Assembly (NCBI RefSeq): GCF_937616625.2 | Contig: NC_065577.1 | Span: forward strand, 41,817,001-41,881,000 | Origin: Mercurialis annua | Lineage: Eukaryota; Streptophyta; Magnoliopsida; Malpighiales; Euphorbiaceae | Length of the DNA stretch: 64,000 nucleotides | Reading direction: 5' to 3' | Shown here: piece by piece, positions 7,965 through 44,438 of the stretch | How the letters are laid out: each line of letters begins with the position of its first letter | Numbering within the stretch: position 1 is the first letter of the stretch | Position numbers and translations under genes: made by a program | The notes under the pieces: generated by a model | The model's input: the letters and a program-made list of their open reading frames with translations, nothing else | The model's database searches: none | What the model was told of the DNA's origin: nothing

Positions 7965-8129
7965 GTTTTTTTCTCTTGAAATTATGTCACAAAAGCAGTT
8001 TTAATGTCTGAAACACAGGAAAAAACAGACAAATTAATAAAGGTAAGGAAATATTTATACTATTGTAATAAATGTGAGGAAGACTTGCAGCCATATGTGG
8101 CTCCACATGGTTTATAATATTTGAAAATA

Positions 8130-8514: not shown

Positions 8515-8710
8515 TTATTTCCATGCAACATAGCGGTCAGCAAAAGCTATCAAGTTGCCATTTCGGCATTTCTAATTCGATTTGCTCTATTTTGCTGCTT
8601 TATAGCTTCAACAACAATAGGACTGATCATGTCTAATTACGAATACAACTAGCATCCAATAGACACAAACTCTGCAGCTTCAATTACGTTCTCTATAGTT
8701 TCCACAAGGT
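8515..8710 (-). pseudogene. Relic of the 3' end of a further kinase copy
   Basis: The stretch with a gcaacatagcggt...caaaagctat motif, a ttgctctattttgct motif and ctagcatccaa-agacacaaactctgc resembles, in the same order, the 3' flank and last codons of copy K5 at about 17225-17380. Only the end of the kinase reading frame is present and it is interrupted. It suggests that the tandem array once held at least one more K5-like unit between K1 and K2. Confidence 0.55.
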
Positions 8711-8753
8711 GTAGATTTCTGAAAACTCTGTTAAGAGAAGTCGTGTAAGCGAA

Positions 8754-10792: not shown

Positions 10793-11399
10793 AATAAGAA
10801 GTTTAATGTCTGAACTACAGATTTGCAGCTATATGTGGCTCTGCACGGTTTAGAGAATTTTAAGATATTTTTTGTTTCTTTGAATTGAAGTCTTGAACCT
10901 GTTTTTCAAGAAATGTAACTTAAGTCAAGTCTGTCAACTTCTGTTCTGTTGGGCGAAAATTATCAAGTTTTACTTTTTTCACATTTTGTTTTCGTTTCCG
11001 GAAACACTTCTAAAACTCCGAAGTCTATATTATAAACTATTTTTATAAAATATACTCCCTCCGTCCCATAATGACAGGCTGCTTGAACAAGTACATAACT
11101 TAAAAAAATATAACCAAGTTAGATATATTTCATTCACAATTTCTATGGTGTATAATCTGTCAAATAAGTTGACTGCTCCAGTTTATTTTGCATTGGTGTA
11201 GTATTTGTTATTTATTGGAATATGAAATAATTAATTCATTTGATGATCACTATATATTTATTAGGGGTAAATATGATTTTTTTTATCTTTACACGTGGCT
11301 CACCAAAAACAGAAGGTGGTCTATAATTTAAGACACCAAAAATAAAAATATAGCCTCTTAATTCTATACAGACGAAATATTATTCAACCGTTTCCGATT
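10793..11399. other. Intergenic between K2 and K3
   Basis: Contains the K2 upstream block and, at 11053-11068, a lone Stowaway-type end (ctccctccgtccc) with no clear partner. Otherwise AT-rich with no gene. Confidence 0.5.
10870..10950 (-). promoter_or_regulatory. Conserved upstream block of K2 with two W-box cores
   Basis: Same block as before K1: minus-strand GTTGACAG then CTTGACTTAAG, about 125-150 bases before the K2 ATG, within a longer conserved stretch. Confidence 0.45.
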
Positions 11400-13314: not shown

Positions 13315-13439
13315 CTTTTTTTTCTCTTTAAAATTATTAGTTTACAAGAAGAAGAAGCAAAACAAAAAACCAGTTTATTGTAGAGAAAATTATAATAATA
13401 TGTGGCTCCACACGGTTTAAATAATTTGGAGATATTTTT

Positions 13440-13520
13440 TGGTTCTTTGAATTGAAGTCTTGAACATTCAAGAACTGTATCTTAAGTCAAGGCAGTCAAC
13501 TTCTCTTATGTTGGACAGAA
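13440..13520 (-). promoter_or_regulatory. Conserved upstream block of K3 with W-box core
   Basis: Minus-strand CTTGACTTAAG or its close variant and a nearby GTTGAC, matching the blocks before K1 and K2, about 175 bases before the K3 ATG. Confidence 0.4.
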
Positions 13521-13810
13521 ATTTATCGAGTATTAGATTTTTAAATTAATCACGCTTTTAAAACTCTGAATTTTTTTATTATAAACTTATTGCAGTCAAC
13601 CGTAAGTTAATAATTCTAACAATTAAAAAAATTTCAGGGAATCAACTTCAATATTACTCGCATGTAATATTTAATAAATTGAAAATTTTAATAAACTTTT
13701 AATCCATTCTGTATATTAATTATTAGAGTCGACTGTATTTAACCATTTTCGGTTTCAACTTTTTCTGTTGTAGCATTTCCTTCCATGAATTGATCAAACT
13801 ACTATTAATA

Positions 13811-14811
13811 CTAGGTCGATGACCGCGCGTTGCGCGGATGAAATTAAATAAATTTAATATTCTTTAATGTATGTTTTTTATATAACTTAACTTGATTGTT
13901 AATAATATAAATATTATTTTTGGGTAATATTCGATTTGTAGATAAAGTATCATAAGAAAAGTTCAGATTTTAAATATAATAATTTAACGGATTTTAAAAA
14001 ACTGAATATTCAAGATAATATAAATTTAATTGAATTAAATATGTTGAACATAATATGAAATATCCTTAGGTAATAGATAAAAAAATATTATTTATAATCG
14101 TAAACATAAACTTTACGAATAATCAACTAATGACAGTTTTGATGATGAATGGAGATTCAAAAAACTAACCCTCTTATGATTAATTAAGCACATCAATGAT
14201 GAAGAATATCTACAAAATAAAAAATCCAAGAGGTTAAAAACATGAAAGACGAACTGAAGCTTAACAACATGTTGTATAGATTGGAATTCCAATTTATGAC
14301 TGAATTTCCCATATCAAAATAGATTAACAAAATCATTTATACTTCAATGAGGCATTTCAACAAACAGTTGGTGATCAATCATACAAATAAATTGTGAAAA
14401 AGAGAGAATTAGAGAGACCTATAAATTGCACTGCAAAAACAATGATTTTTGATTTCAGAATGTGTTCCCCTTTGCTTGACGCAAAATGTTTTCTCTTTAT
14501 ATTTATAATGTAGAATTGCTTGTGGTGCAATATAAAGTGAACATTAATTTGCTGTAGAAGCTTCAACGGCGCATAACATCTAGGAATGAGGTTTTACGTT
14601 ATGAGTGTGCTGAAGAGTTTTTTTGAAAATTGAAAATTTAAGAGAGTTAAAGAGGGTTAATAAATCTGAATAATTCACATGTCTGGATTAAAGAGCGTCA
14701 CTTGTTAACGTTATGTTAAAAGCTAATTGAGAGCTCAGAAGTTATGTTAAAAGCTAATTGAGAGCTCAGAATTATATAATAGATATAGATATAGATATAG
14801 ATATAGATAGA
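13811..14811 (-). mobile_element. Non-autonomous Helitron with canonical ends
   Basis: On the minus strand the element starts TCTATCTATATC at 14811 and ends CTAG at 13811. Eight bases before the CTAG there is a 3' hairpin, CCGCGC-AAC-GCGCGG (13823-13837). It sits between A and T, as Helitrons insert. No Rep/helicase is encoded. Near its 5' end a 31-bp unit is duplicated in tandem (14710-14740, 14741-14771), followed by an ATATAG microsatellite. It lies between two kinase copies and contains no kinase sequence that I could see. Confidence 0.8.
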
Positions 14812-15000
14812 TTCTTTCATGATTGTTTCGATCACATAACCGACTAGCAAGAGCTCGATTAACCCCGGGTCATAATGATATAAGGGTGTTCATTCAGCTT
14901 AAGTCGAAATCAAACCAAAACTCGAACCAAATTAAGTTAAGTTTACAATTTTCTTAAAAATGGTATAGTTCGATTTTTGCTCAGCCCCGAGTGGAAACTA

Positions 15001-16813
15001 CTAAACATCATGATCATTAGCATAACAGAGAGCCGAACTTCGCTCCAAGTTGGCTACTACATCACCTATATTTGGCCTCAGGCTGGCATCCAAATTCACA
15101 CAATGCAGTGCAGTATATGCCACCAGCTCTACAGCCTCTGCTTCTTTAAGCTCCGGTCGAATAACCCGAGGATCTAAAACCTTAACAACTTCACCAGATA
15201 ATATTTTAGGCACTGCAAAGTCCACTACGCTTCGTGCTATTACTCCACTATCATAATCATCATCATGATCATCCTTGAATATAGGTTTCTTCCCTGTCAA
15301 AAGCTCTAACAATACAACTCCGAAACTATACACATCGCTCTTTGTAGTCAACACTTTTCGCGTATAGTACTTAGGATCGACATATCCAATGTTCCCTGCT
15401 GCCTTCATTGACTTGTAACTGTATTCTGATTCAGGAGCCTTCACCGAAAATGCGAACTCTGCAACTTTCGCAGTCCAATCCATATCGAGCAGAATGTTGG
15501 AAGACTTGATGCCTCCGTGAATTACTGGTGGGACGGCGTAGTTGTGAAGGTATTCAATTCCTCTAGCTGCACCTAAAGCAACTTTGATTCTTAGTTTCCA
15601 TGAATTTATCATATTTTTGCTATGTTCATTGAATGTCTTGTCATGTAAATGCCGATACAGATCGCCATTGTTCATGTACTCGTAGACTAAAAGTCTCTCA
15701 TTTTCGTCTTCATAATATCCGATTAGACCAATGAGATGTTTGTGATGAAGCCTTGACATGAACTCTAATTCGGATTCAAAAGCTTTGTGTTGCTCCTCAG
15801 AAAAATTCCTTTCATGACCTTTATGCTCTCTTTTTACCACTATTTCACTGCCATTTACTAGTTTCCCTCTATAAACAATGCTAGAAATTCTTACACCAAG
15901 CTTGTTTCGAATCGAAAAATCATCAGTTGCAGCAGCAAGCTCCGCGAAACTGAATTCCATGGCTCTATGCAATCTCCTTACCTTTGGGGTTGACTTCTTA
16001 TTTCCTCCATAAACAATGCTAGAAACTCCTACACCGAGCTTGTTTCGTGGTGAAAAATCATCGGTTGCAGCAGAAAGCTCTTCGAAACTGAATTCTACAG
16101 CTCTTGTAAATCTCCTTATCTTTCGAGTTGTCTTCTGATTTCCTGAAAATCTTGAACACAGTAAGGCAAAAGCAAAAGATCATAGGCCAAACGGAAATTT
16201 TGACTGGATTATCGAGACACAAACGCATATGACAGTGCTGCGAAAATGTATTGAAAGATTGCACAAACTACTCCAACAATGTCTAGAAATCTTCCAAACC
16301 GCTTTAGATTTGGATATGGATAATAAAACCAGGGAATCCGTCCTTTCGTCATCCAAATTACTCCTTCCTTTTGAATCTTGTAAACAAGATCAATGATAGA
16401 AATGATCAAGATTGTGAAAGACAGTAGCATGCTAAATAGTGCATACTGAGGCTTATGCACAGATGATAGTTGATTCAAAGCTGCTGATGGAAGCTCTAAG
16501 ATGACACTAAAGATCAGGAATAATCTTTCTAATTTTGCTACCTGTTTCAGAAGAGAAAATTAGAAGTTTTTTTTAATCAATATCTTCTGCTAAGTTAAGT
16601 TATAATATCATATACTATATTAATCATTTCTTTCTTAATCTATTCGAATAATTGAGTTTTATGTTTCATTCAAATTTCCAACAGAATGATATATATTAAA
16701 TTACATACAGAACATGTTAATATTACCTTTTGATTGAAGCGATCTGCGGCGGCACGTGTCTTATAACTACCAATATCATCATCTTTAGCATCCATATGTA
16801 TGGATTCAGCCAT
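15001..16813 (-). pseudogene. CR4/CCR-type pseudokinase copy K4, frameshifted
   Basis: Exon 1 (16727-16813, MAESIHMDA start) and the exon 2 acceptor at 16541 match the sister copies. Exon 2 is broken twice: about 8 bases are missing near 16214, where siblings read R-H-I-D-N-P, and one base is inserted near 16178. As a result the membrane half and kinase half lie in three frames. The kinase half (15001-15972 and upstream) stays open. It contains an in-frame 138-bp tandem duplication (about 15866-16003 and 16004-16141) that repeats the segment from RRL-x-RA-x-EFSF to the glycine loop. HRD is HGG, DFG is EFA, and the glycine loop is GVRISSIVYRG. The copy cannot make the full membrane protein; a truncated soluble kinase-like product is possible but unsupported. 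Confidence 0.85.
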
Positions 16814-17283
16814 GTATTCTTTTTTTGCAAGTTGCAATTATTAGTCTCCAAGAAGAAGTTTAACATCTGAAACATAGTAAAAGCAAATCGATAGACGTAA
16901 GTCGATGCTTATACTATTGTAATAAGTGTGACAGAGACTTGCAGCCATATGTGGCTTGACACAGTTTGGAGAATTTGAAGATTTTTTTTTCTTTCTTTGA
17001 ATTGAAGTCTTGAACCTGTTATTCAAGTACTTTAACTTAAGTCAAGGCTGTCAACTTCTATTATGTTGGACTGAAATTTATCCGAGTCTTACGTTATTCA
17101 CGATTAGTTTTTGTTTTTGAAAACGCTTTTAAACCTCCAAAACTGTATATTTAAACTATTCTTATAAACATAATATTTCACCATTTCCGATTTCGATTTC
17201 TTTTTGTAGCGATTCTGTTTTTATTTCGTGCAAAATAGCGGTAACAAAAGCTATCTACGGACGTGCATTTTGTGTACAACGTA
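16814..17283. other. Intergenic between K4 and K5
   Basis: Contains the K4 upstream block and the K5 3' flank; no gene. Confidence 0.6.
16990..17075 (-). promoter_or_regulatory. Conserved upstream block of K4 with two W-box cores
   Basis: Minus-strand GTTGACAGCC and CTTGACTTAAG, as in K1-K3, about 225 bases before the K4 ATG. Its survival before a broken copy shows that the duplicated unit included this upstream DNA. Confidence 0.42.
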
Positions 17284-19374
17284 TTAAGTGCTTATTTCTG
17301 TTGGCAACTCTAACTGGTTTTGCTCTATTTTGCTAGCATCCAACAGAGACAAACTGTGCTCCAAATTACCAACTACATCCCTCATTTTCGGCCTATTTTC
17401 CCCATCTGGATTCACACAATGAAGTGCAGTATATGCCATCACCTCTACTGCTTCTGCTTCGTTACGCTTCAATGGACCGAGTCTCCGATCCAAAGCCTTA
17501 ACCAGCTCGCCAGACACAATTTTAGGTACGGAAAACTCTACTAAACTCGTTAGTGTATGGTCATTTTTGAACAAAGGTCTCTTTCCGGTCAAAAGTTCTA
17601 ATAATACCACACCGAAACTATACACATCAACTTTTGCAGTTAACACATTTTGATCATAGCACTCAGGACTGCGTGAACTGGAATCAAGTTTCGATTCAAT
17701 ATCCTTGAGTGACGATCCAAACCACGAAATTCTTGCAGTCCACGTTGAGTCGAGCAAGATGTTAGAAGACTTGATGTCTCTATGAATTACCGGCGGGACT
17801 GCATAACTGTGAAGATATTCAATACCTCTAGCTGCATCTAATGCAATCTTGATCCTCATCTTCCATGAATCGATCATACTACGATTCTTTTCATGATTGT
17901 TCCGGTCATGTAAATGACTAGCTAGAGCTCCATTTTTCATGTACTCGTAAACTAAAAGCCTCTCGTCTCCATCTTCACTATATCCAACAAGACTATTCAA
18001 ATGTTTGTGATGAAGCCTGGACAAGAATTCCAATTCAGCTTGAAACTCACTCTCTTTTTGTTGATCTCTTTCCGCTCTTCTTATGACGACTTCTCTGCCA
18101 TCCACTAGTTTTCCTCTATAAGCAGTACCGAAATTCCCCACACCGATAACTTTCTGAGGCGCGAAATCATTTGTGGCAGCCGAAATCTCAGCCAGAGTAT
18201 ATTTCTCTACTCTACCCGTTCTTCTTGAACTCGCGGACAGATTTTTTTCCGGAAGATCTCTTAATAGTCCGGAATACAGTAAACCAAAGGCGAAGATTAT
18301 CGGCCAAACAGAGACTTTGACAGGATTATCTACATTATGAGACAGAAAAACATATGCTGTTGTTGAAAAAATGACTTGAAAGATTGCACAAACTATTCCG
18401 ACCATGTCGGGAAATGTTCCGAAAGGCTCGGAATTCGGATACGAGCAATAAAACCAAGGTATCAATCCCGTTTTCTTCCAGCTGACTCTTTGTTTTTTAC
18501 CCTTGTAGACAAGATCAACAATGGAGATGATCTACACTGTGAAAGATATTAACATACTAAAGAGTGCAAATTGGGGCTTATGCACTGAGGATAGCTGATC
18601 AAAAACAGCTGATGGTAGCTCTAGCATGACGTTCGCCACAAGTAAGATTCTTTCAGCCTATTTCACAAGAATTAAATATCAGTAGCTTGAAGGATAAAGG
18701 AATACATTTAGAGTTAACCGCATAATAAATCACGAACTTTAGCGTGTTTTGCAATTTTATTACGTCCTTTCAACTTTGGCAATTCAAAATACAAACTATA
18801 TTTTTTTGTGTAACATTAGAATAAATATTGTTCCGCCTTCACATCAGTATGATTTTCTTTATCAAAATATTGTTCGGTATTCGGAATTGTAAAATATTGA
18901 TAGTTCGTTGAAAGATCGTGTTAAATTTACAAAACAAGCTGTGTTCGTAATTTATTTTGTAATTGGCTCAAACATTTAAACCCTTTGTTTGTATTAATTC
19001 TAGCGTAGAATTCATTATTTGCAAATGAATCGATTTTGACATAATCTATTCTATAAAAAGGAGTTACTAAATGAATTATGAAGTATATCAAACACAGCTA
19101 GATTCATTTATAAAGAAATTTCATAAGATTTTATAGAATTCATTCAAATCTAACACACCAAATTCACATATAAATCAAACTCAAATACATTCATTAAGAA
19201 ATAAATTGTATAAAATTTATGAAATTCATTTGAACCAAACGCACCATAACATTTTAATAGAACTTAATGTTTCAGTACTGACTTAACCTTCTGACTAAGT
19301 AAATCTGTCTTGGTGTGTGCCTTATCACTGCCATGAAAATCTTCATCAACCTTTATATTCAGAATTTCAGCCAT
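17284..19374 (-). pseudogene. CR4/CCR-type kinase-like copy K5, nonsense mutation in membrane region
   Basis: Exon 1 is 19288-19374 (MAEILNIKV start), and exon 2 runs from 18657 to 17284. An in-frame TAG (plus-strand 18532-18534) replaces the Leu of the second hydrophobic stretch, where siblings read FTILIISI. A shorter open frame remains from an internal Met at 18465 (393 codons). K5 is the most divergent copy. It alone keeps HRD, but the ATP-site Lys is Arg (VVIRRA), DFG is WFG, and the activation segment with the DPE motif is shortened. Both halves of the active site are therefore compromised. It may be the oldest member, closest to the CCR-type ancestor in its catalytic loop. Translation from the internal Met would keep two membrane segments. 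Confidence 0.82.
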
Positions 19375-27345: not shown

Positions 27346-27623
27346 AAATTATTCCTTCCGATTCATAATATTTATTGTTTTTGAAAAAAAAATTGGTCCA
27401 TAATATTTGTCATATCAGAGTTTTAAGAAAACATTAATTATTATTTTTCTAAATTTCTCCCCAAGAATAAATAATTTAGTAAACTTAAAAGAACTAGCCA
27501 AATATAAAACTAGTGATAATTAAATATGGACAATTGAGTAAAAATGTATACAAATCAAGACATATATATTAGTTTTTTAATCTATATGAAATGGCTAAAT
27601 GCAACAAATGTTACAAACCGGAG
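27346..27623. repeat. Stowaway/mariner-like MITE
   Basis: The left end tattccttccgattcataat and the right end, in reverse complement tattccctccggtttgtaac, form the 'ctccctccgt'-type inverted ends of plant mariner MITEs. No coding capacity. Confidence 0.6.
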
Positions 27624-27775
27624 GGAATAAATTAATAAAATATATCAAATTTAATTTATTCGAGTTTGACTGATAGGCCATGTTTGGTTCATGGAATAGG
27701 TGCGGAATGGAATAGCTATTCCGTATAGAATGATAATTCTTAACTTTGGTTCATGGAATAGGTATTCCAAAGAAT

Positions 27776-28856
27776 GAACAAAGGATCACTTTACCCCCTG
27801 AACTTGGCACAAAGTATCAAAAACGTCCAAATTGCGAAAACCGGATCACTTTTACCCTGAACTTGGCAAAACCGGCTCAAAATCCCCCTCGATGCTGACG
27901 TGGCACTTAATTGGAGAGTGAGTTTAATAAAAGTCATAATTAACTCTAATTAATTACACTTAAATACTAATTAATTCTAATTAAATTTTAATTAAAATAA
28001 ATAACATCAGGGATCTTTTTGAATCTTTTCCCCAACAAAAAAAATTTCATTTTTTTTTTAATTTCTTCAAACAGATTGGCCGGAAAATTTTCCGGCCAAT
28101 CTGTTTGAAGGAGAACAGACCCACCGGCGGGTCTGTTCTTCAAAAACAGACCCACCGGCGGGTCTGTTAACACAGACTCAACACCGGAGGGTCTGTAAAC
28201 AACAGACCCGACGTCGGGTCTGTTGCCGACGTCGGATCTGTTACAAACAGACCCTCCGGTGGGTCTGTTAACAACAGACCCACCAGTGGGTCTGCTTTGA
28301 ACGACCCACCGCGCGGTGGGTCGTTAACGAGGAGCAGATCTGCTCCTCGTTTTTTTGAGGAGCAGATCTGCTCCTTGCTCCTCAGCCTGAGCAGCAATCC
28401 TCAGGCGAGGAGCAGGCGAGGAGGAGCAGCTCCTCCTCGCCTGAGAAGAGGAGCAGCTCCTCCTCGCCGGAGGAAATTTTTAAAAATAAATTGATTTTTT
28501 TTTATTAAAAATATAAATTTTAGGGATTAATTTGGTATATATGTAAAAGTTGGAGGATTAATTTGTAATTTGAAATTAAAAGGATGAAATTGTCCCTTTT
28601 TAAAATTGTTAGGTATTAATTTAAAACGTTTAAAAAAAATTAGGACCATTTTAAACTTTTTTCAAGCAAAAACCACCTTAGAAAACCAAAACCACTATTA
28701 AAACCGGAGAGTGAGTTACACTCTCTAAGGTGAGAGTGGGGAGGGGGGTTTTTGTACTAAATTTGACAAGTTCAGGGTAAAAGTGATCCCGTTTTGCTAA
28801 TTTGGACGTTTTTGATACTTTGTGCCAAGTTCGGGGGGTAAAGTGATCCTTTGTTC
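27776..28856. mobile_element. Mutator-like non-autonomous element with 10-bp TSD
   Basis: Long terminal inverted repeats of about 90 bp: the left arm begins GAACAAAGGATCACTTTACC and the right arm is its inverted copy ending GTTC at 28856. It is flanked by a perfect 10-bp duplication, TCCAAAGAAT (27766-27775 and 28857-28866), made in the surrounding MITE. Long arms with a 9-11 bp duplication are the hallmark of MULEs. No transposase is encoded. The interior carries an array of palindromes (28065-28474). Confidence 0.82.
28065..28474. repeat. Array of about 14 successive perfect or near-perfect palindromes
   Basis: In order: 28065-28110 (46 bp, perfect), 28112-28139, 28145-28168, 28172-28196 (imperfect), 28200-28225 (26 bp, perfect), 28226-28235, 28246-28269, 28275-28294, 28300-28325 (26 bp, perfect), 28326-28351 (26 bp, perfect), 28358-28375 (18 bp, perfect), 28377-28413 (stem with one bulge and an 8-9 nt loop), 28413-28443 (15-bp arms around one A) and 28448-28462. 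Half-sites drift along the array: CAGACCC first, then ACGACCC, then GAGGAGC. GC-rich against an AT-rich background. No coding role is visible. Confidence 0.9.
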
Positions 28857-28989
28857 TCCAAAGAATTGCTATTCCATGATTTTGTGGAATAAACACTCCT
28901 CTCAAAAACTAAAGAATGGCTATTCCATTCTTTATGGAATAACTATTCTATTCCATGCTATTCAATTCCATGAATCAAACATGGCCATA

Positions 28990-30113
28990 AGTTTAAAGAC
29001 CGGAATAACTCTTTACTCATAATAATAATCGAATATAATGACTTTAATATGAAAAGAAATTTGTAGAAAATACAGAACTAACATTTCCTGTTATTTTCAT
29101 AGCCGTCGGTCTCAAAGTAGCATTCTACTTGCACGTCAGCGCCCACTTAGCTCGTGTTTGACTTAATACTCCTTGAATTAATATTACTATTTAATTACAA
29201 TAGCTGCAAAACATTTATTAAATTTAAATACTATAAACTATCTGTTTTTAGAAAGCATAATTTATCCGTTGTATAGGTTAAATATCTTTTTTTATTGTAG
29301 CAATTTCTTATCAATAAAAAAAATAAACTAGTTATGTAAAAGATTTAGGCTTAATCATCCAAAAATATCCATCTTTTCAAAATTTTATTTATGATCTCAT
29401 CTTTTAAATTTTTTGATTTTAGTCTTTTTTTTTCAATTTCAATTATAGTCATTTGTTAAAATTGAAGTGAAAAAAAATCAAATATACCTTTTATATTATT
29501 TTATTTTTGAAATTTTTTATAATAAAAATACAATTGAAGCAATATGAAATAATATAACAGGCATACTTAAATTTAAACTTTGGTTTAATTTGTTAAATGA
29601 ATGTATAATTGGATGGCTCAAACTCCACATGTTATTATTTATTTGAAGAATGACTCATTTTCTTCATAGGATAGTCATTTTTCTATACATTTATATATCG
29701 TTATCTTTGATAAAGCAAAAAAATATAAAAAGCACACTTAAATTTGTTCTCGGTCTAATTTGAATAAAATGACTATAATCAAAACTAAAAATTGAAAATT
29801 TTGGAATGTGGAATTATAAACAAAAAAAAATCGAAAAAGATGCATATTATTTGACGATTAAGTCAAAGATTTATTATATTCAATATACCTCATTCATTAC
29901 ACATTAAATTAATAAGGTTAAATAAAAATTTCGTAAGGAAAATACTTTATAATCCACCTTTTTAACTCAATTCTTTTAACCCACCTTACGTGACAAGATT
30001 TCATTCGTCCAATTTCCACCCAAAAGTGCATATCTCAAAAAAAAACAGAATTAATCAATTCACTGTTTGATTGTCACGTCAGGCGGTACAAAAAGATGAA
30101 TTAAAAGTGTTGG
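28990..30113. other. Intergenic, AT-rich
   Basis: No gene. Between about 29340 and 29880, similar lines occur in opposite orientation (gtcatttgttaaaattg and ggaccg/cggtcta motifs), possibly an old MITE, but the ends are not clear. Confidence 0.45.
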
Positions 30114-30118: not shown

Positions 30119-31720
30119 TGATAGGAGTAAAATACTCCTATCTTTAGGATGTCTTTTCGTATGCTTTTATGCGTTTTCACCCCGCTTTTATATGAATTGA
30201 TTAGCTTATAGAGGGTGTTTATGTTTCAGGGAATTAGGAGCAATACGAAAGGTTTTGAGGCCGGAATAGTGGAAAATGAGCAAAAGATGGAAAAGTCGAC
30301 GGAAAAGAGGCGAAAGCTCATTTACAAGTCTGAAAATCTGACCCCGCTGCACTAATTGGAAAATTGGAACCAGTTAGAAGCTTCAAATGAATTTGTATTC
30401 TTCATGAAAGTTAAAGTAGACATCCCAAGCTTTCCACCGGTTCAAGAACCGACTCATTTGGACGTTTCTACACCGAGTTATGGAGTTTTGAAGTTTGTGG
30501 TTGTGCAGCAGAAAGGGTGTCTCGATTCGAGACACACCCCTCTTATTTGGGTGTCTCGAATCGAGACACCATAAAATAGCAAACAGAAGACATTTCAAGA
30601 TGTGTCTCGATTCGAGACACACCCCTAAGTTGGGTGTCTCGAATCGAGACAAGGGGATCAGTAGGATTTCGATTTTTGCTTGCTTTCTTTCTCTATTGGG
30701 CCCAAACATTCTAGATGGGTTGTACTTTTATTCCCTATTTTGAGTAGTACTATATAAGGATACCTTATTTTCCCTTTTTAGGGTTATGCACGAGATTTAG
30801 ATTTGTAGCCCCCATTTCCTATTACTATTCTCAGATTTTTAGATACAATTGTTCTTAGTTTTAATTCCAAATTCTTGTTCTTAACTTTGGTGATTAATGC
30901 AAGATTATTATTATTCAAGCTTCATTATTATAGTTATTGTTGAATGTTTTTCTTCTACTTATTAAAGGTAATCTTTCTACATCTTAATAGTATGTTTAAT
31001 TCTTGTTTAATTATTGCTTTAGTTTTGATAATGGCTAGCTAAACTCCTTGTTTGGGGGTTGTTGATGATTGCCATGATTAGTTGAATAGTTGATTAGGGT
31101 TGAGTTGTGTTGGGAGTTTGTTGTGATTATTGGGGCTTAATGCTTAGATTAACTTGATCTATTAATCTATGTTTAGAGACTAGTTAATTAGGCGAGAGTC
31201 AATTAATTAGACGGACTTAGTTGATCACAAACCTAAAATCTAATCACGCTAGGGCGGTTTAGGGAATAGGTGGTTAGAAGTTAGCTTCATGATTGGATTA
31301 GATTGTCATTGTTGAATTCTAATTACGCGAGAGCGATTTAGACTCCAACTTGTTAATCTAATCTCAATTAGACCTAATTGCGGACTCGAGAGAGCGGATT
31401 AGGCAATCTAGGAAAACTTGACCCGAACCGATAACACTACTATACCCAATTTTCTAGGATTCGTTAGTGGCATGATTTAACAACCTTTGAGCGCCTTTTT
31501 CCTATTGTTTTATCCCGTTATTAATTAATTGCTTTAGTTTTTAATTGCTCAAAGTGTTGATTTCACTAGTTTTAAATTCCGTAGTCATTACTATAATTCC
31601 AATTGATCATTGCTTTCCGAATTGAATTTCCAATTACATGTTCGCTCACTTTAAACCTCTTGTCTTCGTGGGATCGATTCCGTATTTCCGGATTACTACA
31701 AGTTAGTATTTTTGCTAACA
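30119..31720 (+). repeat. 5' LTR
   Basis: It starts with TG followed at once by a hairpin (GATAGGAGTA-AAA-TACTCCTATC, 30120-30142). Four 17-bp palindromes lie at 30518-30534, 30552-30568, 30603-30619 and 30635-30651. A TATATAAG box lies at 30750-30757, so transcription probably begins near 30785. Confidence 0.93.
30750..30757 (+). promoter_or_regulatory. TATA box of the 5' LTR
   Basis: TATATAAG stands about 100 bases after the last U3 palindrome; the matching site in the 3' LTR is at 37656-37663. Confidence 0.6.
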
Positions 31721-31744: not shown

Positions 31745-31886
31745 CAAGGTTGCGTTTAATTGATTGAAAGTATTGAGAAATTCGGTCGAGTTAGCGTTAT
31801 TTTCTGTTTTTGGTTTTTTGTTAATAATTATCTTTCGTGGTTTACACTCGGTTTTCTTGTTGTTGTTTGTGTAGGGAATTTGATTT

Positions 31887-34853
31887 TTGTGTATGCACAA
31901 TACGCGACGAGCAAATCTACCACTAGAACCGTTCCAAGATAACCTCGGTAACTACGAAAGAGGTGTAAGAAGAAGAGCCCGTATACCCGAAGTTATGAAC
32001 AACGAGGGAAACAATTATGATGAAGAGGGGAGGTTCAATCCTCTAATGGATGGAGGGGAACAACAATATCCACCCGCTCCTCCATTAGGGAATGTGAACC
32101 GACCAAGGCAACAAGACCACCCAAGGGATGATCGACCCCAAGCGCACGCACACGTGCCAAACCAACAAAGACAAACTTTGGGTGAGTTTTTCTTGCCGGA
32201 TGTGGACAATGCAACTTTTGGATGCTTCGCAATGCCGGTTCAAGCGGCAACTTTTGAGATCAAGCCGAGTACCATTCAACTTTTGGAAAATCGTTGTGCC
32301 TTCTTTGGGTTGAGTCATGAGGATCCTAATGAGCATATCGCCAAGTTTTTGGGTGTTCTAAACACATTCAAGCTTCATGGGATAACGGCGGACCAAATTA
32401 AACTTCGGATGTTTCCTTTTTCCTTGAGGGACAAGGCTAGCATTTGGTTGCATTCTCTACCTAATGAGTCCATTCACAATTGGAGGGAGTTGGCTCAAGC
32501 CTTCCTTAACAAATATTTCCCTCATGGCAAGACTACAAAGTTGACTAAAGACATACTTGAGTTTGTCCAATTTGAAGGAGAATCACTTCATGAAGCATGG
32601 GAGCGGTTCAAGGATTTCCAACGAAGTGTACCCCATCATCGGCTCAATAGAGAGCATGTTATACAAATCTTCTATGATGGGACGAATGTCACTACCCGAG
32701 CTACTATCGATGCGGCTTCGGGGGGTTCACTTATGCAAAAGACCTATGAGGAAGCCCTTGAATTGGTGGAGAAATTGGCCGTGGTTAGTAGTACTTGGGG
32801 TCCTATGGAAAGAAGAGCGCCACCTACTCAAAAGTCACTCATGACTCTTGATCAAGTGAGGGAGATGGAGTCCATCAAAGCCGCAAATGCTTCGCTTCAA
32901 GCTCAAGTGGATGCTCTCAAGAAACAAGTCGCTCCGATGCAAAGAAACGCTCCGGTGGCTTATGTGCAAGTAGGTTGTGAATTTTGTGGTGATTTTGGCC
33001 ATTCGGGAGGAGAATGCCTAGTTACGGGTCAAGCTTTGAGTGAGCAAGTCAACTACATCGGGGGACAAAGGCAAGCTAATGACCCCTACTCTAACACCTA
33101 CAACCCCGGATGGAGGAATCATCCAAACTTCGGGTGGAGAAATCAAGAAGGGCAAGGCAATGCTCAAGGGTCTAATCATGCGGGTTCAAGCTTTCAAAGC
33201 AATAATAGGCCTCCACAACAACAAGGTCCTTATCAAGGCCCTTATCATAACAATCAAGGGAACCACAATCACAATCAAGGGAACAATTTGGGCAATCGAC
33301 CTCCACACCCTCCCGGTTTCCAACAACAACGGAGTCCGGATGAGGGAAGCTTGCTTGCTAAGGTGCTTGAGAGATTTGATAGGATGGAACTTGAAGCCAA
33401 GCAAAGAGAGCTTGATGCTAGACAAAGAGAGAGGAACCAAGCCGCCACTAATCAAATGCTTGAAACTCAAATCTCACAACTTGCTATCAACCTTCAAGGG
33501 AGACCTCAAGGAGGATTGCCTTCCACTACGGAGACTAATCCTAGGGAGCATGTGAAAGCCATCAAAGTTGTAGAGCTTCGGAGTGGGCGGAACTTGGAGA
33601 AAGCCAATGGAAAGAAACAAGTTGTTGAGGAGGATGAGCCTCAAGTGGTAATTGACATAGCAAGTTCAAGTCGAGAGTTGCCTCGGGAATGTGAGGAGGT
33701 GGTTATCGAAGTCGAAGAGCCTTATGTACCACCGCCACCGTTTGTGCCTCCGGTTCCATTTCCGAGCCGGTTAAGAAAAGCTCCGGACAATGAAAAGTTC
33801 AAAAAGTTCCTTGAAATATTCAAGAAAATTCAAATCCACTTGAGTTTGGCGGATGCTTTGAGAGAGATGCCCCAATACGCAAAGTTCTTGAAGGACATAA
33901 TAATGAACAAGCGAAGTTGGGAACAAAGCGCAACAATTTCCCTCACGGAGAATTGTAGTGCTATTATCCAAAGTGATCTACCGACAAAGCTAAAGGACCC
34001 AGGGAGTTTCACTATTCCTTGTTCAATTGGAACTTCTACTTCTCTTAATTGTCTTTGCGATTTGGGTGCAAGTATAAATTTAATGCCATTGTGTCTTTTC
34101 AGGAAAATATGTGGAAACCAACCGATAAAACAAACTTCCATGATGCTCCAATTGGCCGACCATTCGCTCAAGAGACCGCACGGGGTTGCGGAAGACGTGC
34201 TAGTAAAAATGGGCAAGTTCATCTTTCCGGTGGACTTTGTTGTGCTTGATTATGCGGTCGACAAAGATTGCCCCATGATTCTTGGGCGCCCTTTTCTAAA
34301 TACGGGACGAGCATTGGTTGATGTGAATGCGGGAAAGATAACATTGAGAATGAATGACGAGAGCATGGAATTTGACATGAGACATGGAAAAAGCAAGTGT
34401 GAGGAGGAGCAATGTATGAAGATTGATGCCATTAAACCCACATTGCATGTGCCTTTAAAGGAGGTTCATAAGAAAGAACCCAAAATTGGGTGTGCCAAAA
34501 CTAACATGACACCTCATGTCAAGCCACGGAAGGGAAAACCAAGACATTGGGCATCATGGAAGTTGAAGCTCAATGGGATAGCAACCGCAAGCAAGAGACA
34601 AATGTGCAAGGAAGTTGCTACTCTTGGTGAGTACGTCCAAGTTCGAACCTCCCAAGAGCATTCGCATGCGGGGAAGTTGATTTCTCAATGGAGCGGACCA
34701 TTTAAAACACGACGCAAATTGGAGGATGATTTGATTGAGTTGGAGGGGGACAATGGAGATGTTTTTAAGGTGCTTGGGGAATGGTGCAAACCATATCCAA
34801 GAGTGTTGAGGAATGAGGGCCGTGAGCAAGTCGCTCTTTTTGATCCTCCATGA
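31887..34853 (+). CDS. Retrotransposon Gag-protease fused to integrase C-terminal tail
   Basis: A 988-residue open frame. The gag capsid domain spans about 125-300 (FLNKYFPHGKT, then an EAWERFKD motif). A CX2CX4HX4C zinc knuckle lies at 364-377, then a Gln/Asn-rich region. An aspartic protease has its active site DLGAS at 725-729 and ILGRPF near 799. After a Lys-rich linker (about 855-925) the frame ends in WSGPF...LE...FKVLG.W.KPY (about 934-970), which matches the GPY/F module at the end of Ty3-type integrases. The polymerase, RNase H and integrase catalytic core that normally separate these parts are absent, yet the frame is uninterrupted. Codon 1 is the first ATG after the leader; a second ATG two codons later is equally plausible. 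The product should still assemble particles and mature Gag. Confidence 0.9.
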   Translation: MCMHNTRRANLPLEPFQDNLGNYERGVRRRARIPEVMNNEGNNYDEEGRFNPLMDGGEQQYPPAPPLGNVNRPRQQDHPRDDRPQAHAHVPNQQRQTLGEFFLPDVDNATFGCFAMPVQAATFEIKPSTIQLLENRCAFFGLSHEDPNEHIAKFLGVLNTFKLHGITADQIKLRMFPFSLRDKASIWLHSLPNESIHNWRELAQAFLNKYFPHGKTTKLTKDILEFVQFEGESLHEAWERFKDFQRSVPHHRLNREHVIQIFYDGTNVTTRATIDAASGGSLMQKTYEEALELVEKLAVVSSTWGPMERRAPPTQKSLMTLDQVREMESIKAANASLQAQVDALKKQVAPMQRNAPVAYVQVGCEFCGDFGHSGGECLVTGQALSEQVNYIGGQRQANDPYSNTYNPGWRNHPNFGWRNQEGQGNAQGSNHAGSSFQSNNRPPQQQGPYQGPYHNNQGNHNHNQGNNLGNRPPHPPGFQQQRSPDEGSLLAKVLERFDRMELEAKQRELDARQRERNQAATNQMLETQISQLAINLQGRPQGGLPSTTETNPREHVKAIKVVELRSGRNLEKANGKKQVVEEDEPQVVIDIASSSRELPRECEEVVIEVEEPYVPPPPFVPPVPFPSRLRKAPDNEKFKKFLEIFKKIQIHLSLADALREMPQYAKFLKDIIMNKRSWEQSATISLTENCSAIIQSDLPTKLKDPGSFTIPCSIGTSTSLNCLCDLGASINLMPLCLFRKICGNQPIKQTSMMLQLADHSLKRPHGVAEDVLVKMGKFIFPVDFVVLDYAVDKDCPMILGRPFLNTGRALVDVNAGKITLRMNDESMEFDMRHGKSKCEEEQCMKIDAIKPTLHVPLKEVHKKEPKIGCAKTNMTPHVKPRKGKPRHWASWKLKLNGIATASKRQMCKEVATLGEYVQVRTSQEHSHAGKLISQWSGPFKTRRKLEDDLIELEGDNGDVFKVLGEWCKPYPRVLRNEGREQVALFDPP

Positions 34854-37024
34854 TTTTGAAGATTGCTAGTCGAGCTTTCGACTTTAAACAAGCGCGCTCG
34901 GGAGGCATTCCCGAGAGGTTCGATTTTCTACCTTTTATCTTATGTTCTTAGCTTTTAATTTTGTGTTTTTTTTATGTTGTTCTTTTTGTTATTTATGTTC
35001 GATTTGATGTCGGGTGTGTTCAGTTTTTGGATGTGTAGGAGTCCGGGGAATCAACGGAGCGAGGAATCGAGAGACACGAAAAGAGAAAGGAGCAGTTTTT
35101 TCTGCTAAACCTTGTCTCGATTCGAGACAAGCTTCTTAGTAAGTTGTCTCGAATCGAGACAGGGGGTGCAGATCAATCTGCCCCCTTTTCTTCTGTGTCT
35201 CGAATCGAGACACCTTAGTAACAAGGGTGTCTCGATTCGAGACACTCTACTTAAGAGGGAAGAACTCGAATTTTCTCATTGATCTTTAAATTATCACTTG
35301 GATTGATGATGTGGCGCGATATAGGACTTTTACAAGACGCATATTAGCCCGCCTACACCTTCACCGGAGCCACCCGAGTTCGATTGAACTCGAAGATTTG
35401 CTTTCTTCAACTCTAACTCATGCAATTTTCCGTTTTATTTCATTGCCATGAGGACATAGCATAGAAATAGTGTGAGGAGGGGTTGTTGAAAATATGAATG
35501 CGTTAGAGTCTCGATTTTATTGCTTTGTTTTTGATGTTTGCTTGTAGGAGTCTAGTTGTTGTTTTATGTTGTTTATTTTGAGTCACCTCGCACTAAATCG
35601 TTGGCTTGTGTATGTTGAAGCATGATTAGTGACTTTGGTGAATGTGTGAAATGAAAAGTTTGATTCCCGATCAATGAAGTTAGTGAGTGCATTTTTCTAG
35701 TGTGAATCAATCAATTGTGATGTGTTTAAATAAGATGCAAGTTGTATGACATGGTTTAATGAAATTCGAGTTAATTACATGATTAATTGGTGTTGTGTTT
35801 TGATAAGTTTGAAGTGCTTAATACGGATGCATGATGTGTGCTTGTAATGTGATAAGTTGTGCCATTGTTGAAAATTTGAGGATGTTGGCATGTTTTCATA
35901 GGAATTGAGCTTTTTGCATGACACCCTTTTATTGAGTGATTTTTGAGCCTAATTGTTGTTGTGAGTGTCAATTGCATGCTTGATTCCTAGAACTTGCTTG
36001 GTGTCCGTTCAAAACTATAAAGGTTGAGTGTTAATGACTAGATGAGTATGGCATTTAGGAATACCCCAAATTTTTGAACTAAATCACTTAAAAGCCTACC
36101 CTCTACCTTTAGAATCACCATTTTGAGCCTAAGCCCTTCTTTGTCAAAACACAAATTACACAACTCCCTTCAACAACTTACCTCTTAAAACACCCAATTT
36201 GATTTGAATGACCTAATGATGAGAAAAATGTGGCTCTAGCTTGATGATTATAATGAAAATGTGAAGTGGTAAAAGAAGAGAAATTTGCCTTGAGAAAAAG
36301 AAAATCAAAGAAAGAAAGAATAACAACAATATCAAGAAGAAAAAGAAAACAAAAGAAAAAGAGGAAAATGAAGAAAAGAAAAGAAAGAAAGAATAAACAA
36401 AGGCAATAAAAATTGAAAAGTTCACAAGTGTTGAAAATCCGAGCTAGGTCGAAAGTATATTAGAAAAGAGTCGTTCAAATCAAGTTTTAGCCAAGTATCC
36501 AAATCTACCTACCCCTAACCCATAGCCAAGTTACAACCCTCACAAGTCCATATGATAGTTGTTAATTACCGAACCAAATAGTGGAGTTCGGGACTAAAAG
36601 CAAGCTTATGGTGAATAAGCACGATGTGAGTTTAATCGTTTACCTTAAACACTTGTGTGTTGGAATGACATCTTGTGAGTTTCATTATGTTTTGCTTGGT
36701 TTCTATGAGAATAATGCCATGATTTACCATTTCATTTTGGCCAATGTGTGCATGTCCCGTAGATGATTGTAACTTCGAATTTGCTTAACACAAATGCCTT
36801 ACCAATAGTATTCTCAATGTCATTGGACTATGTCATTGTAGTTGCATTCATCATTGGTTGCATCGCTTGCGATTGTTAACACTAGAAGTTTGTCTGGTGC
36901 CTTCATTGGTTGGGAATTCGTATGTTGTTTTGTGTTTACAATCACCAAGGTTATTAGTTGTTGCGGTTGATAGTGAGATTCATTTCTTGCTTGGGGACAA
37001 GCAAGGTTTTAGTGTGAGGAGGTT
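34854..37024 (+). other. 3' non-coding region of the retrotransposon
   Basis: About 2.2 kb with no polymerase frame on either strand. It holds four 17-bp palindromes (35113-35129, 35145-35161, 35196-35212, 35228-35244). An AG-rich stretch lies at 36240-36430. A tagtgtgaggagg motif occurs at about 35468 and again as the polypurine tract just before 37025. Confidence 0.75.
36986..37024 (+). other. Stem-loop and polypurine tract before 3' LTR
   Basis: CTTGCTTG-GGGA-CAAGCAAG (36986-37005) forms a perfect 8-bp stem, followed by the purine-rich gtgtgaggagg tract that should prime plus-strand DNA synthesis at 37025. This layout is usual for Athila-like elements. Confidence 0.75.
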
Positions 37025-38626
37025 TGATAGGAGTAAAATACTCCTATCTTTAGGATGTCTTTTCGTATGCTTTTATGCGTTTTCACCCCGCTTTTATATG
37101 AATTGATTAGCTTATAGAGGGTGTTTATGTTTCAGGGAATTAGGAGCAATACGAAAGGTTTTGAGGCCGGAATAGTGGAAAATGAGCAAAAGATGGAAAA
37201 GTCGACGGAAAAGAGGCGAAAGCTCATTTACAAGTCTGAAAATCTGACCCCGCTGCACTAATTGGAAAATTGGAACCAGTTAGAAGCTTCAAATGAATTT
37301 GTATTCTTCATGAAAGTTAAAGTAGACATCCCAAGCTTTCCACCGGTTCAAGAACCGACTCATTTGGACGTTTCTACACCGAGTTATGGAGTTTTGAAGT
37401 TTGTGGTTGTGCAGCAGAAAGGGTGTCTCGATTCGAGACACACCCCTCTTATTTGGGTGTCTCGAATCGAGACACCATAAAATAGCAAACAGAAGACATT
37501 TCAAGATGTGTCTCGATTCGAGACACACCCCTAAGTTGGGTGTCTCGAATCGAGACAAGGGGATCAGTAGGATTTCGATTTTTGCTTGCTTTCTTTCTCT
37601 ATTGGGCCCAAACATTCTAGATGGGTTGTACTTTTATTCCCTATTTTGAGTAGTACTATATAAGGATACCTTATTTTCCCTTTTTAGGGTTATGCACGAG
37701 ATTTAGATTTGTAGCCCCCATTTCCTATTACTATTCTCAGATTTTTAGATACAATTGTTCTTAGTTTTAATTCCAAATTCTTGTTCTTAACTTTGGTGAT
37801 TAATGCAAGATTATTATTATTCAAGCTTCATTATTATAGTTATTGTTGAATGTTTTTCTTCTACTTATTAAAGGTAATCTTTCTACATCTTAATAGTATG
37901 TTTAATTCTTGTTTAATTATTGCTTTAGTTTTGATAATGGCTAGCTAAACTCCTTGTTTGGGGGTTGTTGATGATTGCCATGATTAGTTGAATAGTTGAT
38001 TAGGGTTGAGTTGTGTTGGGAGTTTGTTGTGATTATTGGGGCTTAATGCTTAGATTAACTTGATCTATTAATCTATGTTTAGAGACTAGTTAATTAGGCG
38101 AGAGTCAATTAATTAGACGGACTTAGTTGATCACAAACCTAAAATCTAATCACGCTAGGGCGGTTTAGGGAATAGGTGGTTAGAAGTTAGCTTCATGATT
38201 GGATTAGATTGTCATTGTTGAATTCTAATTACGCGAGAGCGATTTAGACTCCAACTTGTTAATCTAATCTCAATTAGACCTAATTGCGGACTCGAGAGAG
38301 CGGATTAGGCAATCTAGGAAAACTTGACCCGAACCGATAACACTACTATACCCAATTTTCTAGGATTCGTTAGTGGCATGATTTAACAACCTTTGAGCGC
38401 CTTTTTCCTATTGTTTTATCCCGTTATTAATTAATTGCTTTAGTTTTTAATTGCTCAAAGTGTTGATTTCACTAGTTTTAAATTCCGTAGTCATTACTAT
38501 AATTCCAATTGATCATTGCTTTCCGAATTGAATTTCCAATTACATGTTCGCTCACTTTAAACCTCTTGTCTTCGTGGGATCGATTCCGTATTTCCGGATT
38601 ACTACAAGTTAGTATTTTTGCTAACA
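37025..38626 (+). repeat. 3' LTR
   Basis: Same length as the 5' LTR and identical at every segment compared, including the terminal hairpin, four palindromes and TATA box, each at a constant offset of 6906 bases. Confidence 0.93.
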
Positions 38627-41821: not shown

Positions 41822-44242
41822 TCATTCCGAAATAATCGACATCGTACCGCTAGAGATGCTGCCATGGCTACTATCACAGAGAGACAAAGCTCTTTCTAAA
41901 TTAGCAACAATGTCACTCATAGTTGGCCTATCTTTCCCTTCCAAATTCACACAATTTAATGCTGTATATGCTACTAATTCTACGGCTTCCGCTTCGTTAA
42001 GTTCCGGCGGACCAACACGATGATCTAATACCTTATTCAATTCACCCGACATTATTCTCGGCACTGCAAAATCAACTATACTTGTCGGTGTTCCTCCGTT
42101 ATCATCGCCCTTAAATATTGCTCTCTTCCCCGTCAAAAGTTCTAACAACACCACACCGAGGCCGTACACGTCACTCTTTGCAGTTAACACATTTAATCCG
42201 TAGTATTCTGGATCGATGTAACCTACTGTTCCGGCTGCTTTCGTTGGCCTGTAATCTCTTTCGGATTCAGGCCCCATCATTGACAATCCGAAATCGGATA
42301 CTCTCGCTGCCCAATTCGCGTCCAGCAAGATGTTTGATGACTTAATGTCTCGATGAATTATCGACGGGACTGCATAATTGTGCAGATATTCGATTCCTCT
42401 GGCAGCATCTAATGCAATCTTGATTCTCACTTTCCAGAAATTGATCATATCACTACTCTTATGAATGTTGTTCTTGTCGTGCAAATGATCATATAACGCT
42501 CCGTTCTTCATGTATTCGTATACTAAAAGCCTCTCATCGCCATCTTCGCAATAACCGACGAGCCTTACCAAATGCTTGTGGTGAACCCTAGACAAAAATG
42601 CCAATTCAGAATCAAATGCACTCTCCTTCTCTTGAAACTTTTTCGTCTTCTGCCCCGTTTCGCCTCTCTTAATCGCCACTTCACGACCATCGCTTAATTT
42701 ACCCTTATAAACCACACCAAAACTCCCTGCACCAATCTTGTTCTCGAGTGAGAAACCATTGGTAGCAGCAGCTAGCTCAGCAAGACTAAATTCCTCAGCT
42801 TTATCAGGATGCTTTGATGAAGTTCCGCTCCTCTGTCGCCTCATTGCCCTTGAGCCCTGGCGCATAATTGTAGACGATCTCGAAAGAATACCACTATTAT
42901 TCGATGCTCCACCACCATTCGAACCGCCTCTAGTTATTGTAGGCTGAACTGAATTATGCACCTTCTTTTTACCAAAACAAACACCAGCCCACAAGCAATA
43001 GATAATCGTACAAATGCCAGCGAAACCGCCAACTGATCCCACTACACAAAACACCAACAACCCAGTTGTCAATTCCTTTGACGGAGACGACGGGGAAGGC
43101 AATACAGCTGGCGGAAATGGCGAAACCGGCGGTGGTGATAATGGAAACAGCCTCGAAACATTTAACCCTGGCGGATAACAAACATTCCCTGAACCAGAAC
43201 ACAATCTATCAGAATCAGGATACATTTTCCGACCTTCACAAGCAGATTGTTCACAAGGCCCCGGAAGAATTTCATCGGGCAACGGAACAATCTGAACACC
43301 CGAATCATCAACATTAGACCAACCAGGACCCCAACACATAACCGAAAAATTACTAGTAATCAATCCACAACTAAAAGTTGAACTCGAAACAATCGACTCA
43401 AATGCAACGCCACCAGTACCACTAACCGAATACGCTCCGTTTCCGCCCCAACAAACGACCGATCCGTTACCCGTTCTAATAGCACAACTATGATCAACAC
43501 CAAGAGCTAATTGTGAATACTCAAATGCTAAAGAATTCAAAGGAATATCTAACTGACCAAAACTATTATCACCTTTACAAATCAAAAACCCAATTGAATT
43601 CACTCCACAAACATGTGAACCACCCGCTGAAATACTCAACATGGACATATTTGCAAATTGACCCTCAATTTCTAAAGCAATTGTATTATTACCCCAACAC
43701 TTAATTCTCTTAGTATTCTTCAAAATCCCACAATTAAAACCAAACCCAGATGAAATTACCTCAAATCTATCACCACCCACCAACTGCTCACCGGAATTAC
43801 CGTCTCCTCTCCAACACTGAACAATTCCGGTATCATTCAAAACGGTGTCGTTTAAAACTCCACACACTTGGTCACCACCAACGGCAAAATTCTGTAATAA
43901 AACAGTCCTATTAAAGTAAACTCTTTGTGGGTTATTAAAACCCACCGGAGAATTTGAGCTGGTCGTGTCCCAGCATAAAAATGCGTAGCCGCCGGACCGG
44001 ATGCCGCAGAGGAAATCACGGCCTCCGGAGATGGCGGAGAAGGAGATGGTCGGCTCAACGGTGATGGAGTTTCCATCTTTATAGCAAACTATGTACTGGG
44101 TATTCCTCGCCGCCGCTATTCCGCAGATGGCGGAGGCGGTGGCGGCAATGGTTGAACCGGAGCCTAGGGAGTGGGTTTTGGATGAGAAAAGAGTGAGAAA
44201 TGTGAAGAGGGTGATGATGGAGGAGAAGGGTAGTTTTGTCAT
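41822..44242 (-). CDS. CCR4: CRINKLY4-related receptor kinase, CCR4-like, full length
   Basis: A single intron-less frame of 806 residues. A signal peptide (1-26) is followed by an extracellular domain with about six or seven crinkly/RCC1-like repeats marked by C-G-(I/V) and CW motifs (30-320). Next come a short Cys cluster (330-356), a Pro-rich stretch, one membrane helix (392-417), a Ser-rich juxtamembrane part and a Ser/Thr kinase domain (about 497-780). Catalytic motifs are complete: GAGSFGVVYKG, VAIKRG (Lys 525), HRDIKSSN (631-638), DFG (650-652) and DPEYY. CR4-family kinases act at the plasma membrane in epidermal and cell-fate signalling; the ligand of the CCR4 branch is not evident from the sequence. 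Its kinase domain is clearly akin to K1-K5, about 22 kb away on the same strand, and serves as the intact reference. Confidence 0.95.
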   Translation of the reverse strand: MTKLPFSSIITLFTFLTLFSSKTHSLGSGSTIAATASAICGIAAARNTQYIVCYKDGNSITVEPTISFSAISGGRDFLCGIRSGGYAFLCWDTTSSNSPVGFNNPQRVYFNRTVLLQNFAVGGDQVCGVLNDTVLNDTGIVQCWRGDGNSGEQLVGGDRFEVISSGFGFNCGILKNTKRIKCWGNNTIALEIEGQFANMSMLSISAGGSHVCGVNSIGFLICKGDNSFGQLDIPLNSLAFEYSQLALGVDHSCAIRTGNGSVVCWGGNGAYSVSGTGGVAFESIVSSSTFSCGLITSNFSVMCWGPGWSNVDDSGVQIVPLPDEILPGPCEQSACEGRKMYPDSDRLCSGSGNVCYPPGLNVSRLFPLSPPPVSPFPPAVLPSPSSPSKELTTGLLVFCVVGSVGGFAGICTIIYCLWAGVCFGKKKVHNSVQPTITRGGSNGGGASNNSGILSRSSTIMRQGSRAMRRQRSGTSSKHPDKAEEFSLAELAAATNGFSLENKIGAGSFGVVYKGKLSDGREVAIKRGETGQKTKKFQEKESAFDSELAFLSRVHHKHLVRLVGYCEDGDERLLVYEYMKNGALYDHLHDKNNIHKSSDMINFWKVRIKIALDAARGIEYLHNYAVPSIIHRDIKSSNILLDANWAARVSDFGLSMMGPESERDYRPTKAAGTVGYIDPEYYGLNVLTAKSDVYGLGVVLLELLTGKRAIFKGDDNGGTPTSIVDFAVPRIMSGELNKVLDHRVGPPELNEAEAVELVAYTALNCVNLEGKDRPTMSDIVANLERALSLCDSSHGSISSGTMSIISE

Positions 44243-44312
44243 TGATGAAATGAAAATCTGCAGTGGCCGGAGCGGTGGTGGATTCCGGTGAGCAGCTTCA
44301 TTTGGTGGTTTG

Positions 44313-44315
<3 letters not shown>

Positions 44316-44349
<34 letters not shown>
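44316..44349. repeat. GA/CT microsatellite in 5' UTR of CCR4-like gene
   Basis: About 17 GA units (CT in the transcript), starting some 70 bases upstream of the ATG. CT-rich leaders are common in plant promoters and 5' UTRs. Confidence 0.85.
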
Positions 44350-44352
<3 letters not shown>

Positions 44353-44438
44353 AATGTATTTGTTGAGAGATGAAATAGTTTAAATTCAGGTGTCAGTTTA
44401 AGACTTTGAGAAGAACACTAGAAAAAGGGATTGGGATT

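Follow-up and report, generated by a model that had tools for sequence, protein, structure and literature searches.

Mercurialis annua carries a family of non-autonomous Mutator-like elements with a core composed of palindromes, and it is probable that this core is remade by one palindrome arm templating the other. The copy described here in detail lies in a stretch of 64,000 nucleotides, further referred to as the window (C55:41817001-41881000 of a 451-Mb genome). Copying from arm to arm is supported by a converted palindrome in the copy L021, by clusters of differences which fit an inverted source, by subfamilies with similar ends and dissimilar arrays, and by hairpins in 66 of the 71 copies with both terminal inverted repeats (TIRs).

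The element in the window

The palindrome-array element is 1,081 bp long with the array in its middle, and it is nested inside an outer MITE which we take to be PIF/Harbinger-like (Table 1). The initial annotation regarded the array as the core of a Mutator-like element, and this assignment stands, since long TIRs and a perfect 10-bp target duplication flank it on both sides; the ends, given there as 90 bp, are actually about 113 bp long. The left TIR contains imperfect two-copy direct repeats, no tandem array was reported in either TIR, and comparison of the array with the window by BLASTN gave no match within the TIRs. A captured gene was considered for this copy and rejected, because the single stop-to-stop frame of at least 110 aa overlapping it (111 aa, 27988-28323) spans the array. 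A search of 27600-29050 against Rfam returned 57 matches at E up to 1 and none at the family gathering score; such sub-threshold matches are explained by hairpins drawing microRNA models. The exact 25-nt TIR pattern had 0 matches in viral contigs.

Fourteen intervals were marked by hand in the array. Six of them are perfect palindromes (46, 26, 10, 26, 26 and 31 bp), five have one or two mismatched pairs, and the other three, in the frame chosen, are broken remnants with 7-11 mismatched pairs, the last remnant containing a perfect 15-bp core. Seven hairpins with a score of at least 8 cover 300 of the 410 bases, compared with a mean of 0.03 and a maximum of one such hairpin in 1,000 dinucleotide shuffles of the array. 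The description of about 14 adjacent palindromes of 10-46 bp, several of them perfect, filling 410 bases is thus borne out; so is the shift of arm wording along the array from CAGACCC to ACGACCC and GAGGAGC, and the array is indeed something other than a simple tandem repeat. The window copy is shortened with respect to its near twin L009, about 91, 24 and 27 bp of array being gone, and deletion therefore accounts for some of its broken units.

Table 1. Features of the palindrome-array element and the outer MITE (positions in the window)
Feature	Position	Strand	Remarks
Outer MITE	27676-28986		22-bp TIRs 27676-27697 and 28965-28986; 3-bp ATA on either side
Target site duplication, left	27766-27775	+	TCCAAAGAAT
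Left TIR	27776-27888	+	Begins GAACAAAGGATCACTTTACCCC; 88% complementary to right TIR over 113 nt
Left subterminal AT-rich stretch	27889-28064	+	Common to sibling copies
Palindrome U0	28065-28110		46 bp, perfect; related palindrome also at the left end of type 2 arrays
Palindrome, ACCGGC centre	28113-28138		26 bp, 1 mismatched pair
Palindrome	28144-28169		26 bp, 2 mismatched pairs as framed; contains the 91-bp deletion junction relative to L009
Broken unit	28170-28198		24-bp deletion scar; in L009 part of a 102-bp nested palindrome
Palindrome, GACGTC centre	28200-28225		26 bp, perfect
Palindrome CCGACGTCGG	28226-28235		10 bp, perfect; longer in subfamily B
Palindrome, TCCGGT centre	28245-28270		26 bp, 2 mismatched pairs
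Palindrome	28273-28296		24 bp, 2 mismatched pairs
Palindrome, AACGACCC arms	28300-28325		26 bp, perfect
Palindrome, AACGAGGAGC arms	28326-28351		26 bp, perfect
Palindrome	28357-28376		20 bp, 1 mismatched pair; forms a larger hairpin with unit 28326-28351
Gapped, decayed inverted repeat	28378-28410		Better preserved in L009 and L014
Palindrome	28413-28443		31 bp, perfect
Remnant of the 81-bp nested palindrome of L009	28445-28471		27-bp deletion in the window copy; perfect core 28448-28462
Right subterminal AT-rich stretch	28475-28743	+
Right TIR	28744-28856	-
Target site duplication, right	28857-28866	+	TCCAAAGAAT

Other palindromes of the window belong to a retroelement, in which three clusters (30517-30651, 35111-35245 and 37423-37557) each hold four perfect odd palindromes of 17-21 bp, built as GTGTCTCGA(A/T)TCGAGACAC with an alternating centre base. 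The first and third clusters have the same four palindromes and the second a similar set. The gag-like frame of this retroelement lies at 31884-34853, and five related membrane-protein-kinase-like genes occupy 6078-18531 on the minus strand; a further relative lies at 41822-44392 (frame and genes named by eye).

Copies in the genome

The genome contains 686 exact matches to the 17-nt TIR end (353 forward, 333 reverse), and the reversed control of this end gave 0. Among the first 100 exact ends, all on C1, there are 27 neighbouring +/- pairs, spaced by 799-1,278 bp in 25 cases, by 2.1 kb in one and by 22 kb in another. In the search with the array, 40 of 264 candidate places were scored and gave at least 244 matching pieces; 38 other loci were fetched from the matches listed. 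Both TIRs are present in 66 of 69 element sequences, and four further loci (L047, L053, L068, L069) have one TIR only. Complete copies measure 634-1,223 bp.

Target duplications in the 66 elements are perfect and 10 bp long in 48 cases, 10 bp with one mismatch in eight, and 11 bp in another eight (one with a mismatch), the remaining two elements having none; the test let both ends slide up to 4 bases in AT-rich flanks, so that single weak cases may be chance. Duplications of 9-11 bp are given as the range used for MULEs in PMC3310237. The ends and target duplications place the element among the non-autonomous Mutator-like transposons. The copies of one subfamily (L012, L014-L021, L023) each have a nearest relative of at least 99.3% identity, from which recent spread is concluded. 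An assembly artefact was considered as the source of the array and rejected, as eight chromosomes carry related copies with target duplications and the quality of the assembly is given as QV 52.8 in PMC11157195.

MULE-domain frames are abundant in the genome, 150 having been scored of 1,158 candidates. No autonomous partner was found among these 150 when they were compared with 80 listed TIR hits; the nearest frame lies 5.2 kb from any of the hits and the next 61.5 kb. The frame at 5.2 kb (G000:C3:57152416-57152700, 525 aa, near the TIR of L010) is one of several with the same score and frame length. The four single-TIR loci were rejected as longer or autonomous relatives: L047 has no second TIR and no 120-aa frame in 8 kb, L068 ends early, after a palindrome remnant, L053 retains the left TIR alone, and L069 has a TIR and, over 1 kb, a tandem repeat. 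In the last case (L069:480-1500) the same kind of TIR is joined to an AACGTT-bearing tandem-repeat core, with no palindrome array within 1 kb.

Changes within arrays

Related copies allow arm changes to be divided into one-sided and paired ones. The ratio was 45 to 1 in group A, 49 to 2 in group B, 37 to 0 in type 2 and 13 to 0 in type 3, and these groups argue against the view that symmetry comes from compensatory changes of single bases. In group D (L040, L042, L044, L046) 23 one-sided and 4 paired changes were counted, a result reached by 13 of 500 permutations, and pooled older copies gave 246 one-sided and 18 paired changes, where 500 permutations had a mean of 5.7 and no value as high; both alignments mix non-orthologous units, and therefore the pooled excess of paired changes carries little weight. 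The initial annotation assumed that in each unit both arms had changed together. This applies to units and subfamilies as wholes, but most single-base changes among related copies are one-sided, and maintenance of symmetry by paired drift, base by base, has to be abandoned. Arms varying independently, named there as an observation that would speak against the proposal, are what is found within subfamilies at the single-base scale.

Some differences can be followed in U0. A paired insertion (A on the left, T on the right) marks subfamily A, and L031 has the right-hand one only; between type 1 and type 2 there is a paired A-T/G-C change, for which L050 is a one-sided intermediate. Subfamily A also has mismatched arms in several units in common.

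The clearest event concerns L014 and L021, two copies of 1,207 bp. In L014 two 65-bp arms surround a 7-nt spacer and differ by 6 mismatches, and in L021 the same arms have none. These six arm changes make up 6 of the 9 differences between the two copies, L021 being otherwise more than 99% like its sibs, and the derived string was found in L021 alone among the 69 element sequences (one strand searched). It suggests that one arm was rewritten from the other, presumably in place, which is the signature of inverted template switching; the stretch may, however, stem from a donor among the hundreds of copies beyond the 69. This is the one polarised clean arm conversion found, and it gives substance to the earlier suggestion of template switching at hairpins.

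Multi-base clusters of differences between sibs are in agreement with such copying. Inside arrays 21 of 84 fit an inverted source, with 0.8 expected from random substitutions, and outside arrays 2 of 27, with 0.15 expected; the scan counted both directions of each pair, and a few clusters in the array of the short copy L030 went into the outside class. A direct source is fitted by 27 of the 84 array clusters, both sources by 13 and the inverted source alone by eight. At least three of these eight (the window copy with L025 and with L027, L012 with L023) come from pairs where one copy lost units, and may thus align non-orthologous units. Spacers or centres appear flipped between L049 and L052 and between L067 and L075; the flips are ambiguous, because L057 and L075 contain the two orientations next to each other and the loss of different units would look alike. 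Several unit losses amount to 27 or 54 bp, others to about 91, 24, 13 and 5 bp. In the TIRs of L063, L064, L066, L062 and L080, small multi-base differences from L065 and L073 match the opposite TIR inverted, and homogenisation may affect the arms of the TIRs as it does those of the array.

It could be argued that the arrays arose passively: a few ancestral palindromes were amplified in tandem, after which units were lost and decayed, with no arm-to-arm copying. Many units of one array are near copies of one another, several losses have the size of 27 or 54 bp, and the array clusters fitting a direct source would be expected. Such an origin is nevertheless improbable. It leaves the L021 event unexplained unless the arm was converted from elsewhere, and it accounts neither for subfamilies with unrelated arms nor for the architecture of L014, where, in addition to an 83-bp palindrome, a 102-bp near-perfect palindrome is composed of smaller palindromes in mirror order, their asymmetric centres included.

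Subfamilies with similar ends and different palindromes

In the first 200 bp of nine representatives every pair matches, with 76-98% identity over 72-100% of the length. The array of type 3 (L051) had no BLASTN match at E 0.001 to the eight other arrays, and some other types have array parts in common. Type 2 is characterised by the palindrome CATCTGGGTTCGCCGGCGAACCCAGATG, type 3 by GTCTCTGTAAGGAGACGAA and its complement, type 4 by CAGATCCTCAGGTGAGGATCTG, and type 5 by GGAGCAGATCTGCTCC together with CCATCTGAGG; further palindromes include TGCTCGTCTGAGACGAGCA and CACTTCCATTAGGAAGTG. A tree of the TIRs has two well-supported sides, and array types track it, with 12 changes compared with 31 in shuffles. 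Types have words in common at the array edges, and their wording overlaps, as in ACAGACCCATCTGGGTCTGT of L082 and L083, CAGACCC of type 1 and CATCTGGG of type 2. Judged from the letters, this overlap suggests that types were rebuilt from older arms.

Capture of each array type, ready-made, from another palindromic repeat of the genome, comparable to the capture of genes by Pack-MULEs, would suit the isolated position of the type 3 array. It is nonetheless very improbable, as several types have the left-end palindrome U0 and the GAGGAGC motif, the overlapping arm words (CAGACCC, ACCCATCTGGGT, CTGGGTTCG, TTCGTCTC) fit stepwise rebuilding, and at least one of these TIRs is present at all 38 other array loci fetched from the matches listed.

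Retention of the array and folding

Loci were picked by TIR regardless of array: 14 with close TIRs, outside the listed array matches, 20 with diverged TIRs, and five with exact TIR ends paired at a distance of about 1 kb. Both TIRs were present in 12 of 14, 18 of 20 and 5 of 5 loci, and at least three GC-rich core hairpins in 12, 15 and 5 of these respectively, that is in 32 of 35. The 39 loci accordingly divide into 32 with an array of at least three such hairpins, three with fewer (L070, L073 and L076, of which L076 and L070 have one each today) and four with a single TIR. For all copies with both TIRs, the 66 of 71 having at least three GC-rich core hairpins were counted with the end margin kept clear (200 bases in the main count, 180 for the five exact-pair loci) and with L022, L029 and L036 excluded, one TIR being missing in each. 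The median is 6 separate hairpins per copy, between ordinary TIRs. In copies of the recent burst the hairpins are long and nearly perfect. RNA folding of six arrays (the window copy, L014, L040, L046, L051 and L057) gave z-scores of -18.6 to -39.3 against dinucleotide shuffles, 40 per array, and in three more arrays 81-85% of bases are paired (mononucleotide shuffles as control).

Such folding raises the question whether the palindromes are kept because their hairpins, as RNA or single-stranded DNA, serve the element. They might feed or escape small-RNA silencing, aid replication or gap repair, or bind a protein. Selection on source copies would then favour a core made of a run of hairpins, template switching would supply it, the letters would be free, and the family would keep shape and not sequence, the information conserved in this mobile element being its symmetry. 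If the array had a conserved function, its presence in nearly all sampled complete copies, including those chosen regardless of array, would be explained; such a function also agrees with arrays of differing sequence folding far beyond chance and with the state of the recent-burst hairpins. However, a common ancestor together with a self-feeding mutational process explains near-universal arrays too, and the mutational process alone yields strong folding. Within subfamilies most single-base arm changes are uncompensated, subfamily A has uncompensated mismatches in common, which speaks against selection for folding being strict, and L076 and L070 have come down to a single GC-rich hairpin. Selection of this kind is therefore regarded as possible, though rather unlikely.

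Proposed mechanism and its meaning

Rewriting of one palindrome half from the other would explain why symmetry survives while letters change. Polymerase template switching between inverted repeats is described with arm homogenisation and spacer inversion as outcomes (PMC8604942), and for this reason inverted template switching is taken as the maker of symmetry; it has also been put forward as a source of hairpin stems and a means of their upkeep (PMC8794818). During replication, or during gap repair after excision, the nascent strand would fold back or switch at a hairpin and copy the opposite arm. In this way imperfect palindromes would be turned into perfect ones and new inverted units built from pieces of old arms. 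Altered source copies would then spread, every burst with its own array, moved by a transposase assumed to act in trans, and after insertion the arrays would decay through ordinary, mostly one-sided mutation. We infer the timing in the life cycle, the origin of new types by the same process and the role of a MULE transposase as mover.

Long palindromes are thought to be unstable, and the origin and upkeep of hairpin stems is presented as a standing question in PMC8794818. Here one genome holds many copies, some nearly identical, in which palindromes are intact, converted, shortened or replaced. With these copies it becomes possible to measure, in a plant, at what rate and in what geometry inverted template switching takes place. 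The family may be seen as a case of a mobile element renewing its core without keeping its sequence.

Comparison with known systems

The initial annotation knew no named element type of this design, and none was found in the open-access PubMed Central literature searched by title and the start of the abstract. Long TIRs and target duplications of 9-11 bp are features of MULEs, while shortness, lack of coding sequence, TIRs and high copy number (634-1,223 bp; 686 exact TIR ends) are those of MITEs. With non-autonomous MULEs the family has in common TIRs above 100 bp, 10-bp target duplications, a length of about 0.6-1.2 kb and many copies; it differs in its palindrome-array core with letters specific to the subfamily, and no captured gene was found in the window copy. 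MULEs with tandem or multiple TIRs, as described by Ferguson and Jiang (PMC3310237), likewise combine MULE-like TIRs with inner inverted repeats, but the inner palindromes found here are not TIR copies according to BLASTN.

The foldback element Tm1 (PMC3169594) also consists largely of inverted repeat and has 9-bp target duplications. Its repeats are reported as direct tandem motifs inside two TIRs, whereas in the present family separate hairpins lie between the TIRs, which are not tandem direct repeats and take only about 113 bp of 1,081 bp. Short interrupted repeat cassettes (SIRC) of Arabidopsis (PMC10342631) are similar in having a complex interior and a proposed MITE origin; they are characterised as direct repeats split by diverse spacers, in contrast to palindrome arrays. 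A comparable process is template-switch conversion as presented in PMC8604942 and PMC8794818, where one arm is made the complement of the other, as in L021. It is known there from inverted repeats in yeast genes and from RNA genes, and in Mercurialis annua it would shape the whole core of a transposon family.
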